Positions 2,758 through 51,891 of a stretch of DNA of 64,000 nt are shown piece by piece. The stretch's first letter is position 1. Each line of letters opens with the position of its first letter. The stretch comes from a virus. Below the pieces are notes generated by a model. That model searched no databases. It was not told the DNA's origin and saw only the letters and a program-made list of their open reading frames with translations. Where the stretch lies: positions 19,239 through 83,238 of IMG/VR virus record IMGVR_UViG_3300042502_001136. One strand, 5' to 3'. The position numbers were made by a program, and so were the translations under genes.

Positions 2758-3399
2758 TTAAGGTTCTTGTATTATCCAACATTCAACTCTAGCAGATTCA
2801 CACCATTCAGCGTAAATAATATTATAGCTATTTATTACATATTCTCCATTAAGAATTACCCAATTAATAGGAATTGGATTATGACTACATTTACTATAAA
2901 TTTTTTGTATTATTCCAATTCTAGCACCTACTAATGAATTAGTTAAAACATTATTAATATAATTACTTGGTGTACCATATTGATATTCTTTTTCAAAATT
3001 TATAATATCTGTATTCAAAATAATAGGATATCTTTTAAAATCTAAAGTAATAGAACCATTAGTGTCAGCAGTAATACCATTTATATCTGTCACTAAATTT
3101 TCTCCATTACTCTTTGCTACATTAGCACCAATTAAATCTATTACTCCATCTGTAATAGTAATAGCAGCGACTAATTCATCGCTGCTATTAAAAAATTTAA
3201 TGCTTTTGTTGTATATCTCGATATCTTCTTTAAATTTAACAACTTCTTCTATTGTATAAAAATCTTCAAATATTACAAGTTTTCCTGCTTCTGTAATACC
3301 TATTACTTTTACATTTTTAGTAGTAGAAGTTCTATCATTAAATTTAATAATATCAGGAAATTTAATTTCCCCTTTGAGCATCTTAATGAATTTTAACAT
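2758..3399 (-). CDS. Putative tail or fibre-associated structural protein
   Basis: 213 residues, starting at ATG 3399 just downstream of the endolysin gene. The middle contains a short repeat-like beta stretch (LVTDINGITADTNGSITLDF) of the kind seen in fibre shafts, where NGxTGxVxLT-type repeats are common. The C-terminal 60 residues (VGARIGIIQKIYSK...NWVILNGEYVINSYN) may be a knob. No membrane segment. Position beside the fibre gene supports a virion role, but the family is not recognised. An eight-base-loop hairpin occurs within the coding sequence at 3162-3187. Confidence 0.55.
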   Translation of the reverse strand: MLKFIKMLKGEIKFPDIIKFNDRTSTTKNVKVIGITEAGKLVIFEDFYTIEEVVKFKEDIEIYNKSIKFFNSSDELVAAITITDGVIDLIGANVAKSNGENLVTDINGITADTNGSITLDFKRYPIILNTDIINFEKEYQYGTPSNYINNVLTNSLVGARIGIIQKIYSKCSHNPIPINWVILNGEYVINSYNIIYAEWCESARVECWIIQEP

Positions 3400-8262: not shown

Positions 8263-9303
8263 TTATTCAACAAGACTATTTTCTCTAATAAACTTTTCAT
8301 AACCATCATCAGAAATAATACCTTTTAAAGTTCTAGCAACATTATCAATAACTTCTTCAAGAGCACTATCTGATATATCAGTATTATGATTCAAAAATAC
8401 ATCAACTTTTTTAGGGTTACAAAGATATGTTAAATTTACAGTACTAAGTATAACAGTATCCGTTATTGGAAAGATAACAACTTTATCTCTAAGGTAAGCA
8501 ATACGACTATTATCTTTATTACCTGATAAATTAGAATGTTTAATAGACGTTTTAAATTCTTCATCTACAATTCTTACTTCTGCATCTAAAGTGTTAGCTA
8601 ATTCATAAACATTATAAGTTTCTTGTACTTCTTCTACTGTTATGTCCGTTTCCCCAATAGAGAAAGTTGTTGTTGAGTTTGTGTAACTTGCAATAACAAT
8701 TTTATTATTAACTTTATCATATGTTACTTCAAAACCAATAGGAAGATTTCGTTCAATAAGACTTATAATAAGATTATTATAAATAAAAGCTTTTTTATAA
8801 ACACTAACATTATCAGTAGGAAAATACTCATCAGGAAGTGTAGCAGTGTCTACTAAAGTAATAGTATCATCATCTACTTCTAGTATAATAAGTATATCAC
8901 TTATATCATCCAAACCACTATCTTCTATTGGGGGAAGGTATGTAAAATACTTTACTTTCTCGACAGTTTCCACTGTTTGACAATTACAACAAACAGAGGC
9001 TTCTGCACTAATATAATATAAATGATTAAAAGGAAGCTGAATAACAGCTTCCTTTTCATTTAATTGTAGTACAGGAACTTCTATTGTTTTTACTAAACTA
9101 TTAACATCTAAGATACGTTTGATAATATCGTAAGCCCCTTGTCTTTTTTCATTAGATAAAGGACTAAGACGTTGTTTAATAAACTTTAAGATTTCTTTAT
9201 TAATAAATATATCTTTTTCTTGTGGTAAAAAGTTATTACTCCAATTACTACTAACTTCTTGTAACAGTAAGTCTATATTTACGTGTAATTCCTGTGTAGT
9301 CAT
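8263..9303 (-). CDS. Putative head-neck connector or ring protein
   Basis: 346 residues. The N-terminus is helical (NIDLLLQEVSSNWSNNFLPQEKDIFINKEILKF), then QRLSPLSNEKRQGAYDIIKR. The middle is beta-rich, and the C-terminus has a helix, LEEVIDNVARTLKGII. I recall this NWSNNFLP...NKEI signature from structural genes of Bacteroidota phages, where helical N-termini often contact the portal. A CC pair (EASVCCNCQT) may bind metal or form disulfides. Two copies of the CCCCAATAGA motif lie inside this gene (8652-8661 and 8934-8943). Confidence 0.55.
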   Translation of the reverse strand: MTTQELHVNIDLLLQEVSSNWSNNFLPQEKDIFINKEILKFIKQRLSPLSNEKRQGAYDIIKRILDVNSLVKTIEVPVLQLNEKEAVIQLPFNHLYYISAEASVCCNCQTVETVEKVKYFTYLPPIEDSGLDDISDILIILEVDDDTITLVDTATLPDEYFPTDNVSVYKKAFIYNNLIISLIERNLPIGFEVTYDKVNNKIVIASYTNSTTTFSIGETDITVEEVQETYNVYELANTLDAEVRIVDEEFKTSIKHSNLSGNKDNSRIAYLRDKVVIFPITDTVILSTVNLTYLCNPKKVDVFLNHNTDISDSALEEVIDNVARTLKGIISDDGYEKFIRENSLVE

Positions 9304-22938: not shown

Positions 22939-22985
22939 TCATTTCATGTAATTGTTTACGGGAATGATTACGTTGACAAAGATTA

Positions 22986-23099
22986 TGGTAACTACACGTG
23001 CTCGTGTTCGTGGTCACTTCGGTGCTACGACACGTGCTCGTGTTATGGTTACTATACTTGCTCAACATTGTGGTTACGACACGGAGCGTTACGTTGACC
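22986..23099 (+). repeat. Degenerate tandem repeats with CACGTG cores
   Basis: Four imperfect units begin with TGGTnAC at 22986, 23011, 23046 and 23071 (lengths 25, 35, 25, about 29). ACACGTGCTCGTGTT occurs twice exactly. The stretch is far richer in G and C than its surroundings and non-coding. TTACGTTGAC is found just before (22967) and at the end (23089). It may be an operator array. Confidence 0.5.
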
Positions 23100-23178
23100 T
23101 CTGTCTGTGCGAGTAATCGAAGAATTAATACAAATCAAATCAATACAAATAATCGAAGTAAAATTAATAATCAAAACA

Positions 23179-23634: not shown

Positions 23635-23994
23635 GGTGTTAAGGGTTTGGGGAGTGTTATAGCTGATTGGAATAATCGTGAGAGAGATGAACCATAGGCA
23701 CAAGCACGTAGAGGCAGGAGAGGTAGTGATAGTTAATAGTATTGTTGGTTAATACTCAAATTATACAAGTCATTTTACTCCTGCATTCTCCCCTAATCAT
23801 AACCCTCATAATAAACACCATCAAAACCCTACACACACACACCCTAATAACCCTATTCCTATTCCAATCCACACACAACAACCTCAACAACCTACTAAAC
23901 CTTATACACCATTAACACCAATACACGACCATTACAATACAATTACAGTAACCAATGTGATTATCAACAACTTACCTAATACTACAATATTACA
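23635..23994. other. Non-coding region with a G-rich to C-rich strand switch
   Basis: 360 bases without a convincing gene. The first 130 are G-rich, continuing the C-free stretch 23583-23662 of the previous gene. An inverted repeat GCAGGAG (23714-23720) / CTCCTGC (23778-23784) encloses an inner hairpin AGTATT (23738) / AATACT (23751). From 23784 to 23926 there is not one G in 143 bases, with CA-rich runs such as ACACACACACACCC. The end becomes ordinary AT-rich leader before the next ATG. Confidence 0.55.
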
Positions 23995-25994: not shown

Positions 25995-26396
25995 ATGTTT
26001 GACATGAATTATATAATACTAACTATAGCCATTATCGTTGTATTTGGACTAATAGTAACTTTATTAGTTATGAAGATATCTTCTGCTACTATTAAAGAAA
26101 GACAACATGATGTTGCATTTAATTGTGATATATATACTCCTTTTAATGATAAAGAAGTGTATGAAAGACAGTATAGTGTTACAATACACTATTTAGATAA
26201 TCTTATCCAACTTTTAGAAAGTTCAGATTATGCTATTAAAGATGGAACAATTGCAAGATTTAAGGGAAATTATTATATTTATTGTACTACTAGTATACAT
26301 AAAGATAAATGGATTCCTTGTAATGTTGTTCTTATTGCAGATAAAATTAAATTTATATCCATAAAACAAGATGTACTACTTAAACAAAAACCTTAG
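25995..26396 (+). CDS. Single-span membrane protein
   Basis: 133 residues. One strong N-terminal transmembrane helix (YIILTIAIIVVFGLIVTLLVM, about 6-26) precedes a soluble domain of about 100 residues with mixed beta strands (NYYIYCTTSIHKDKWIPCNVVLIADKIKF). ATG at 25995 or 26004 are both possible. The end overlaps the next gene by 26 bases. Unknown function. Confidence 0.55.
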   Translation: MFDMNYIILTIAIIVVFGLIVTLLVMKISSATIKERQHDVAFNCDIYTPFNDKEVYERQYSVTIHYLDNLIQLLESSDYAIKDGTIARFKGNYYIYCTTSIHKDKWIPCNVVLIADKIKFISIKQDVLLKQKP

Positions 26397-26781
26397 AATA
26401 TCTACACCTGCTCTTATTACTTTACTTGAAGCTAATAATTTCAAGATTAATAAAGATGAAACAAAAGTAATTATTGTAGATAAAATCAGACTTAGTGAAG
26501 CTTCTTGTACTTTAGAAGAAGCTCACACAGAATTAAAACGATTATCTCCTATTTATAATAAATATGAAAAAGTACCTGAAAATCTACTTAAACTTAAAAC
26601 AATAAATCATATGTTTATTGATATTGAGAAAGAATATAGAGAATTAAGAGAAAAACTTGTTTATTATTATTGTATTCAAAATTGTGTTAAACGATTAGGA
26701 AGAGTTAATAAAATAATCGAAAAATCTATTACTACTCCTTTTGCTATTGATAGCCCTTGTGATAGTAATACTCCGACATAA
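26371..26781 (+). CDS. Hypothetical helical protein
   Basis: 136 residues, basic and helical, starting inside the end of the previous gene. It includes EYRELREKLVYYYCIQNCVKRLGR and a Ser/Pro-rich end. Its stop codon directly abuts the start of the multi-hairpin non-coding element. Not recognised. Confidence 0.55.
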   Translation: MYYLNKNLRISTPALITLLEANNFKINKDETKVIIVDKIRLSEASCTLEEAHTELKRLSPIYNKYEKVPENLLKLKTINHMFIDIEKEYRELREKLVYYYCIQNCVKRLGRVNKIIEKSITTPFAIDSPCDSNTPT

Positions 26782-26955
26782 TATGTGCCGATATATTAGA
26801 GTCACTACCTGTAAAGGTGGCAGCATAGAAATATGCCTTACACATAGTAATATGTTATCAGTTAACCAATAACACTGATATTAATGTAAGTAGTTAATAA
26901 GAATCTTATTAACATTGTGCAAATAGACAACACTCCTGCTTGTGTTTCTATTAAG
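26782..26955 (+). ncRNA. Candidate structured RNA: six consecutive hairpins, three with GNRA loops
   Basis: Six hairpins can be drawn in a row. A: CTACCT/AGGTGG with loop GTAA (26805-26820). B: GCATA/TATGC with loop GAAA (26823-26836). C: ACATA/TATGT with loop GTAA (26842-26855). D: TATCAGT/ACTGATA with an 11-base loop (26856-26880). E: GTTAATAAG/CTTATTAAC with loop AAT (26893-26913). F: AATAGA+AACAC/GTGTT+TCTATT with one bulge (26922-26952). Three GNRA-type tetraloops in 50 bases strongly suggest a folded RNA rather than DNA palindromes. It has no tRNA features. It could be an independent small RNA or a leader of the 26980 gene. Confidence 0.6.
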
Positions 26956-26979
26956 TATTAACAAAAAAACAACCAAATA

Positions 26980-27354
26980 ATGGAAGCATTTAAAGACTAT
27001 TACAAATTTCCACTCAAACAAGAACCAGTATTAGAAGAAGTAGTATTAACTGCTGATGATAATTTTGCTATTGAGTTTGTAGAAGAAGATGATAAAAAAG
27101 GATTATATCTTTCTGATGTAACTAAAAAAGAAATAATTCATGCTCTTAATAAAGGAAATAAAATACAACAGTATTTTCCTAATCTTAATATTGAAGGAAG
27201 TTATATTAAATCAGGTAACAAAACTCTTATATCTATAAGAGGTTGGGGTAATCTTACTGGTATTGGTGGACATAATTTAGATGTTGATAAAGCTAAATCT
27301 ATTCAACATCAATTTGCTCTTTATATAGTTAATTGTTTGACTAAATCTTTATAG
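26980..27354 (+). CDS. Hypothetical protein downstream of the structured element
   Basis: 124 residues. Acidic N-terminus (LEEVVLTADDNFAIEFVEEDD), beta-rich centre with GSYIKSGNKTLISIRGWGN, and a C-terminal helix (DVDKAKSIQHQFALYIVN) that loosely resembles the ends of the small early proteins at 23995 and 25512. Function unknown. Confidence 0.6.
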   Translation: MEAFKDYYKFPLKQEPVLEEVVLTADDNFAIEFVEEDDKKGLYLSDVTKKEIIHALNKGNKIQQYFPNLNIEGSYIKSGNKTLISIRGWGNLTGIGGHNLDVDKAKSIQHQFALYIVNCLTKSL

Positions 27355-27751: not shown

Positions 27752-28373
27752 GATTGTAGAGGTTAAACATTGAAACCTTGTATCTAAATCACCTGATACA
27801 AAAGAAAGAGTATCGAAAATAGTAATATATAAGATGCTCCACACAACACTTGAAATGGTATTTGAGAGTGAACATAGGATATTAGTAGTATTTAGAGATA
27901 CTTATAGTGATATATCTGTTGATATATCTGTTGATGTGTGATGGGTTACCAGCATGACCATTATAAATAATAAAAGTATTAGATAACAAATCTAAAATTG
28001 GGATACTTAAAGTTTATGATGGTGCTAATGATTAAAAAGGAGAAATCCATAAAGATACTCATTTTTGGTTGAGTTTTATTTGTTTGTTTGATGTACTACC
28101 CCGCTACACTTACATAGTGTAGCGGAATTACATTTTTACCCCTTTGTAGTACTATAATATTACTTTAGATATAAAGTTCAATACAAGTGTTTAAAATAAG
28201 CCAAGAATTTTACTAATGATGATATTTACCCCAATAGAAGATAGTGTTCGTTTGAGGTAATTGAAATATATCATTATATTAGTGATAATATTAATGCTCA
28301 TATTACAGACAAAACAAACATTCCCTCTATTGGGAAAAATATTAACTATAGAAACTTTAATAATTATATATAT
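27752..28373. other. Non-coding region with hairpins and an inverted motif pair
   Basis: 622 bases without a convincing gene; a 35-codon frame at 27834-27941 is possible but weak. It holds a TGTATC/GATACA inverted repeat (27779-27800), a 12-bp tandem duplication GATATATCTGTT (27909-27932), the strong nested hairpin 28093-28152, and an inverted pair of the dispersed motif: CCCCAATAGA on plus (28229-28238) and a one-mismatch copy on minus (28326-28335). It precedes the GroES-like gene and the replication block, so it probably carries promoters or a control RNA. Confidence 0.5.
28093..28152 (+). promoter_or_regulatory. Nested hairpin element
   Basis: A perfect 10-bp GC-rich stem, CCGCTACACT (28101-28110) with AGTGTAGCGG (28116-28125) and loop TACAT, is enclosed by a second stem, GTACTAC (28093-28099) with GTAGTAC (28146-28152). 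A short T run (TTTTTA) follows the inner stem after seven bases. It may be a terminator for the upstream unit or a structured leader. Confidence 0.5.
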
Positions 28374-28706
28374 ATGGCGTTAGAACTAGAACAAATCAAA
28401 TTGAAACATGGTCTTCTACTAATAGAAGAAGAAAAACCAATGGTAGCAACACACTCAGGTGGTGTAGCTAAAACACAAGACACTATTAATGCAGAAATTG
28501 CAAAAAAACAAATTTACATAGGTAAAGTTGTTAAAGTAATTAAATCATTAAAAGACGAAGATGAAGATTGTATTGATTGCAAAGAAGGTGACATAGTATG
28601 TTATCAAAAACAAGCTTGTGACCCTTTTGATATTCCTATTAATGGATATAACAATCTTAAAACAATAAGACCTGTTTATATCATTGCTATTATTACAAGT
28701 GAGTAA
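28374..28706 (+). CDS. GroES-like (chaperonin-10 fold) protein, tentative
   Basis: 110 residues. The order of elements resembles chaperonin-10: an opening strand LKHGLLLIEEEK, a middle loop containing ATHSGGVAKTQDTINAEIAKKQ where GroES has its mobile loop, then IGKVVKVIKS, CKEGDIVCYQKQACDPFDI and a closing VYIIAIITSE. GKVV...GDIV.Y...I is the Cpn10 rhythm. If correct it could redirect host GroEL to fold virion proteins, as T4 gp31 does. Sequence similarity is weak, so this is a hypothesis. Confidence 0.5.
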   Translation: MALELEQIKLKHGLLLIEEEKPMVATHSGGVAKTQDTINAEIAKKQIYIGKVVKVIKSLKDEDEDCIDCKEGDIVCYQKQACDPFDIPINGYNNLKTIRPVYIIAIITSE

Positions 28707-37699: not shown

Positions 37700-37751
37700 T
37701 ACTTTTTGAATAAAAATAATAGGAAATTTTTAAAAAATTATTAGTAATTAA

Positions 37752-37782
37752 TTTGGTAAAACAAAAAAAAGAGTTATATTTG
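37752..37782 (+). promoter_or_regulatory. Bacteroidota-type promoter (-33 TTTG, -7 TATATTTG)
   Basis: TTTG at 37752-37755 and TATATTTG at 37775-37782 are separated by 19 bases, matching the known Bacteroides vegetative promoter (TTTG / TAnnTTTG). Transcription should start near 37789, about 65 bases before the RecT-like gene. It is the clearest host-type promoter in the window and marks a new unit for recombination and SSB genes. Confidence 0.65.
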
Positions 37783-37854
37783 TATCACATTAAACCGGTA
37801 CAAGGCAATTAGAGAGTTTTATTATCTAATGTACTAATAATAATTGTAAAGCAC

Positions 37855-39469: not shown

Positions 39470-39490
39470 TCAACTTTAAATATGTACTTA

Positions 39491-39520
39491 AAGCGTCTGC
39501 TATTGTAGACGCTTTTTTTT
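39491..39520 (+). terminator. Intrinsic terminator
   Basis: Stem AAGCGTCT (39491-39498) / AGACGCTT (39507-39514), eight-base loop, followed by a run of eight T ending at 39520. It lies 22 bases after the acidic-tail gene. Confidence 0.85.
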
Positions 39521-39566
39521 GATTTAAAATTATAGCTATTATTTTAAAATTTAAAATTATTACAAC

Positions 39567-51682: not shown

Positions 51683-51720
51683 AGTATTGTAGATAAATTA
51701 GAAATAACTAAATAAATATT

Positions 51721-51891
51721 ATGACAGAAGTTCAAATTAAACAAACTATTGGTCAATTAGAAGCATCTATTAATAAAGTAGAATCGTTTGCTAATGAAGA
51801 AGAATTTAAAGAATATTGTGATAATATTCAAACTTGTATTACTCACTGGAAAATAATCTTAAAAAAAGTTAAAGAAAATGAAAGGAAATAA
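51721..51891 (+). CDS. 56-residue hypothetical protein
   Basis: ATG 51721, TAA 51889-51891. Helical, acidic (MTEVQIKQTIGQLEASINKV). Overlaps the next start at 51878. Tight arrangement supports a real gene. Unknown function. Confidence 0.5.
   Translation: MTEVQIKQTIGQLEASINKVESFANEEEFKEYCDNIQTCITHWKIILKKVKENERK

Follow-up and report, generated by a model that had tools for sequence, protein, structure and literature searches.

A candidate structured RNA with compensatory base-pair changes between two genes of related crAss-like phages

Does the gap between two neighbouring phage genes hold a folded RNA that is kept by selection, and what would such an RNA do there? The question is posed by a gap of 198 bases in the window, by which we mean the whole stretch of 64,000 bases analysed here, part of a virus record in IMG/VR that is 83,238 bases long. 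The gap is flanked by two + strand genes (26371-26781 and 26980-27354), and genes for a helicase and a family A DNA polymerase lie a few kilobases beyond it. Few known viruses are as abundant as the crAss-like phages, and the virus is treated as a crAss-like phage of Bacteroidota because its terminase, portal and major head protein can be assigned to PHROG families (E <= 1e-77) and because the named phages with a related terminase, less than 60% identical, are for the most part crAss-like phages or phages of Flavobacterium or Bacteroides. Contigs from two other IMG/VR metagenomes (L029, L030) carry a terminase 100% identical to that of the window and represent the same virus elsewhere. A terminase scan also found a related record of 81 kb, IMGVR_UViG_3300042691_032784 (L042 below), whose terminase is 76% identical and which matches the gap itself at 75% identity over about 95 bases (E 1.5e-11). 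The element of L042 lies in the same gap, flanked by homologues of the same two genes. The locus comprises the following features in the window:

26371-26781 (+): upstream gene, an ORF of 136 aa whose last 7 nt overlap helix P0
26775-26803 (+): hairpin P0, loop GCCG, a 5' hairpin overlooked by the initial annotation
26805-26820 (+): hairpin A, loop GTAA (GNRA class), peripheral because absent from L042 and present in the window only
26819-26825 (+): conserved GGCAGCA
26823-26836 (+): hairpin B, loop GAAA
26837-26841 (+): 5' strand of P3, CUUAC, whose partner is 26886-26890 and which would close the three-way junction of C and D
26842-26855 (+): hairpin C, loop GTAA
26856-26880 (+): hairpin D, 7 bp, loop UAACCAAUAAC
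26881-26892 (+): conserved UUAAUGUAAGUA, identical in both genomes, holding the 3' strand of P3, GUAAG (26886-26890)
26893-26913 (+): hairpin E, also a DNA palindrome (10-1-10)
26914-26920 (+): AUUGUGC, conserved in the two-genome comparison
26922-26952 (+): hairpin F, with no T run behind the stem
26953-26979 (+): unpaired A-rich leader running to the start codon, 27 nt (26 nt in L042)
26980-27354 (+): downstream gene, an ORF of 124 aa, phrog_12467, with a counterpart 67% identical in L042

All six hairpins that the initial annotation had drawn in the gap (A to F) were recovered where it had placed them, most of their pairs with a probability above 0.8 in the ensemble of the extended sequence. 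Shuffled sequences had been expected to fold less stably than the real one, and this proved to be the case: against dinucleotide shuffles the real fold reached a z of -3.3 for the 198 nt of the gap, -3.7 for the 174 nt originally delimited and -4.05 once P0 was included by beginning the sequence 27 bases earlier. The reverse strand folds comparably (z -3.2), and when folding was scanned along the entire window (mean z -0.77, sd 1.43), several places proved stronger than the element. Because the other strand folds equally well and such places exist, the folding energy by itself is only moderately unusual and would not carry the claim; it is also what could be put forward for a chance origin, in which AT-rich intergenic DNA folds by accident. 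The grouping of the GNRA loops is of another order. The rarity supposed for three GNRA hairpins within 50 bases was borne out, as counting hairpins with a stem of at least 5 and a GNRA loop gave three in none of 20,000 segment shuffles (each gave 0, 1 or 2), and nowhere else in the 64 kb, on either strand, do three such hairpins fall within 60 bases.

The decisive evidence comes from L042. Its element on its own beats its shuffles (z -3.0), and the cores of the two elements align without dispute in a MAFFT alignment made from sequence only. Of the 21 pairs of P3, C, D and E in this alignment, none is broken in either phage. The covariation proposed as a check on the hairpins was found in the same alignment: each of the five pairs that differ between the two sequences is changed on both sides with pairing kept, two in hairpin C (C-G/A-U, A-U/G-C), two in hairpin D (C-G/U-A, U-A/C-G) and one in hairpin E. 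When the partners were slid by 1-3 columns, no compensatory change remained; a letter-shuffle control gave 23/500, a weak test since the alignment consists of two rows. RNAalifold, given no structure, returned exactly the helices P3, C, D and E at -13.9 kcal/mol, as against a mean of -2.5 in column shuffles, none of which was as low (0/1000, z -6.2). A longer alignment, A4, gave an RNAalifold z of -5.3. An accidental fold is therefore extremely unlikely, given the GNRA cluster, the absence of any equally good shuffled alignment and the compensation of all changed pairs.

Outside the core, P0, B, E and F are found in both phages with other sequence and other length. The counterpart of P0 in L042 has 10 bp and the loop UAUGCCGGAAAC; hairpin B is rebuilt there as GCAATTAT/ATAATTGC with an inserted sub-hairpin; E is replaced by GCUAUA-AUUU-UAUAGC; and F reads AGAAGGU/ACCUUCU, a new sequence that is still paired. 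The end-to-end stems of P0, B, E and F were reached by at most 0.2% of shuffles of their own letters, with bounds picked by eye. As a shared feature the three GNRA loops hold in part, since hairpin C keeps the class in L042 (GCAA), while A is absent and the GAAA loop of B is gone. Support is good for hairpins C, D, E and F. Compensation at homologous positions is thus seen in two sequences, the covariation resting on five changed pairs and the rebuilt hairpins, and selection on base pairing is demonstrated by this comparison of genomes. The stretch very probably works as RNA, because L042 carries the element at the corresponding place and its altered base pairs have changed together, partner with partner.

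The same replacement bears on hairpin E as DNA. The near-perfect palindrome of 21 bp pointed out in the initial annotation is real and unique in the window, and it had been suggested that a protein operator might lie within it. More broadly, the palindrome and its neighbours could be protein-binding or replication sites whose folding as RNA is incidental, with which the equally good folding of both strands would agree. An operator is disfavoured by L042, where the sequence of E was replaced and its pairing kept, and no other copy of the palindrome was found in the window or IMG/VR. As the other hairpins also covary and the GNRA loops appear only when the + strand is read, a DNA element is very unlikely.

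The gap was also compared with known genes and signals. A small protein was considered and rejected: the only ORF of the gap (29 codons, from 26783) scores -0.65 bits per codon against a gene mean of +0.40, below every real-gene piece and with a GC3 of 0.31 vs 0.09, and the ORF at its place in L042 is unrelated. An intrinsic terminator was likewise rejected, a G+C-rich stem with a T run being absent from both strands of 26782-26979. Matches to the host-type sigma promoter consensus in or just before the gap are no more than chance. The reported lack of tRNA features agrees with ARAGORN, which finds no tRNA or tmRNA genes. Rfam release 15 gave no match in the window at gathering score, the best sub-threshold hits (E 0.77-1.7) being far below the gathering bits, and the L042 homologue is likewise outside the Rfam families. 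The proposal of a candidate novel phage RNA is thus supported by a homologue with compensatory changes and by the lack of an Rfam family.

Known members of the element number two among everything searched, the window and L042. A covariance model of the element core (R1) scored the L042 copy at 109.5 bits and others at no more than about 20, among 27 related records and the pattern matches in IMG/VR and GTDB. A model search without filters of four related loci gave a best score of 20.3 bits (E 0.1), which was taken as chance. Loci sharing the exact 16-mer of hairpin A were set aside as chance matches, and pattern scans for CTTAC...ATGTAAGTAG...TTGTGC in IMG/VR and GTDB genomes gave the L042 record as the sole real match. 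BLASTN of the gap against named phages gave no match; no relatives of the terminase were found in GTDB genomes, and none of the upstream gene in a direct search. Searching by the DNA polymerase or by either flanking gene led to relatives that are too distant. One such DNA polymerase relative, L006, is syntenic and has neither the element nor the downstream gene. In L002, L004, FpV4, G010 and G017 the homologue of the downstream gene is preceded by an ORF that ends within about 70 bases, so close that there is no room for the element, and L001 has a longer gap before its homologue with no match to R1. Because homologues of the downstream gene elsewhere go without it, the element is a lineage-specific partner of the gene pair rather than a leader that the gene family requires. 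In FpV4, a Flavobacterium phage, 2.3 kb without annotated genes lie behind the homologue of the 26980 gene (L028:3381-5711).

The position of the element suggests what it may do. In both phages the same gene stands downstream and the distance from hairpin F to its start codon is conserved (27 nt in the window, 26 nt in L042), while the spacing to the upstream gene varies, P0 overlapping the gene end in the window and starting about 18 nt past it in L042. Since the start-codon spacing is kept while the upstream distance differs, and since neither a promoter nor a terminator belonging to it was found, we infer that the element acts in cis on the gene at 26980. The reading we favour, at a probability of about 0.5, is that 26775-26952 (+), about 180 nt, is a structured RNA whose pairing is under selection in two or more related crAss-like phages and which acts as a cis leader of this gene. 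It would be the structured leader of the 26980 gene within a polycistronic + strand mRNA. Hairpin F, at a fixed 26-27 nt before the start codon, precedes the unpaired A-rich initiation region, and the multi-helix body would govern how accessible this region is, or else where the message downstream begins and how stable it is. The downstream protein has a confident AlphaFold model (pLDDT 83.5) for which no fold relative was found in PDB or BFVD; the upstream gene has no Pfam or PHROG match, and its counterpart in L042, in the same place, is 43-44% identical.

The main rival is a structured phage RNA acting in trans, cut from the operon or transcribed within it, which as a free molecule would address targets of the phage or the host; RNA, RNA polymerase, the ribosome or a defence protein are proposed. 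Many free RNAs have peripheral hairpins that vary around a conserved unpaired core, as A (window only) and B (enlarged in L042) do here, homologues of the downstream gene elsewhere do without the element, and a second structured RNA 850 bases on is not bound to one fixed downstream neighbour. These points make a trans-acting RNA a genuine possibility, against which stand the conserved start-codon spacing and the failure to recognise a promoter or terminator of its own in scans that covered host-type promoters and intrinsic terminators. It is unlikely that the element serves only in the processing or stability of the mRNA, as a cleavage mark or a protection from exonucleases that needs neither ligand nor trans target. 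Its place between two co-directed genes would suit such a role, as would its stable terminal hairpins, P0 at the stop codon of the 26371 gene and F before the leader; plain protection, however, needs no conserved unpaired UUAAUGUAAGUA, AUUGUGC and GGCAGCA, and the conservation of these segments exceeds that of the helices.

Read as a cis leader, the element can be set beside the cis-regulatory leaders of bacteria and phages (riboswitches, ribosomal-protein leaders and RNA thermometers). It resembles them in being structured, in its length of about 180 nt, in the same-strand gene directly downstream, in the fixed distance to the start codon and in having two mutually exclusive conserved pairings, and it differs from them in the lack of an Rfam match and in its restriction to one phage lineage. 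phi29 pRNA, GOLLD and ROOL are phage-encoded structured RNAs, and the element is like them a conserved multi-helix noncoding RNA in a phage; it has no Rfam match to any of them and lies between replication-region genes, and no correspondence with them in sequence or structure was found. For GOLLD and ROOL, cryo-EM has been reported (PMC12286853). tRNAs and introns (group I) have been reported in crAss-like phages (PMC7886860), with which the element shares being a structured RNA in the same phage order; unlike these, it interrupts no gene, is no tRNA and has no intron match in Rfam. None of the terms noncoding RNA, small RNA, riboswitch and promoter appears in a review of the order published in 2023 (PMC10136315). 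The literature on crAss-like phages and structured or noncoding RNA yielded no report of such an element, in a search that reached few subscription papers, so that absence is not proof, and the only RNAs of these phages in the literature found are tRNAs and introns. The element is an RNA family in none of the catalogues searched. A structured RNA with compensatory changes offers a concrete, testable handle on gene control in crAss-like phages, and hairpins picked out by eye in a single raw sequence can lead to a real family.

Three further pairings are leads, not results. P3 (CUUAC/GUAAG) is conserved in sequence and invariant, and hence gives no covariation; in single-sequence ensembles it forms only in a minority of structures, with a probability of about 0.2. 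A competing pairing of UGUA (26885-26888) with UGCA (26918-26921) spans hairpin E, is possible in both phages and excludes P3. That two conserved pairings are mutually exclusive suggests, but does not show, that the element could switch between two folds. UGCC in the loop of P0 (26786-26789) could also pair with a later GGCA, conserved as it is, in a putative pseudoknot, which shows no covariation. An intergenic two-state regulatory RNA, the first known from crAss-like phages, that times the expression of a replication-region gene, in a lineage with a second uncatalogued structured RNA 850 bases downstream, is an unlikely extension of these leads.

This second structured RNA (27829-28033) lies in the gap 27752-28373, whose fold reaches a z of -7.3 against shuffles, and is in no Rfam family. 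It is conserved in six crAss-like phages (L042, L041, L038, L034/L062, L036 and the window), with the conserved blocks ACACUUGAAAUGGUAUUUGAGAGUGAAC and GUUACCAGC. The closing helix P1 forms in every one of the six; three of its four pairs differ on both sides, and P2 adds two more such pairs. The covariation score of 0.63 compares with 0.21 in shuffles, none of 500 being as high. With the model built for it (R2), all six are recovered at E <= 4e-19, and G016 is a seventh candidate (E 2e-4). It stands upstream of the gene at 28374, which by eye looks GroES-like and has no Pfam or PHROG match. The second RNA is better sampled than the first element and merits a study of its own.

Several other features of the window were recorded. 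The strongest fold of the window scan (3061-3240; z about -10 with 24 shuffles) is antisense to the gene at 2758-3399. Three AT-rich gaps (37700-37854, 39470-39566 and 51683-51877; 20-22% GC) are 74-93% identical in the related phage G018, a conservation above that of most genes, and are perhaps promoters. Two gaps of high G+C, 22939-23106 and 23635-23994 (44% and 37% vs 27% for the window), show no similarity to G018. A motif, TTTCCCCAATAGAAG(ATAG), is dispersed on both strands in 13 copies with at most 2 mismatches, where 0.9 are expected (for example at 8922, 21238, 21659, 28226, 45811, 53491 and 61366), none of them within the element's gap; it is possibly a regulatory or DNA-binding site of the phage, and a motif resembling it precedes the GroES-like gene in L006.
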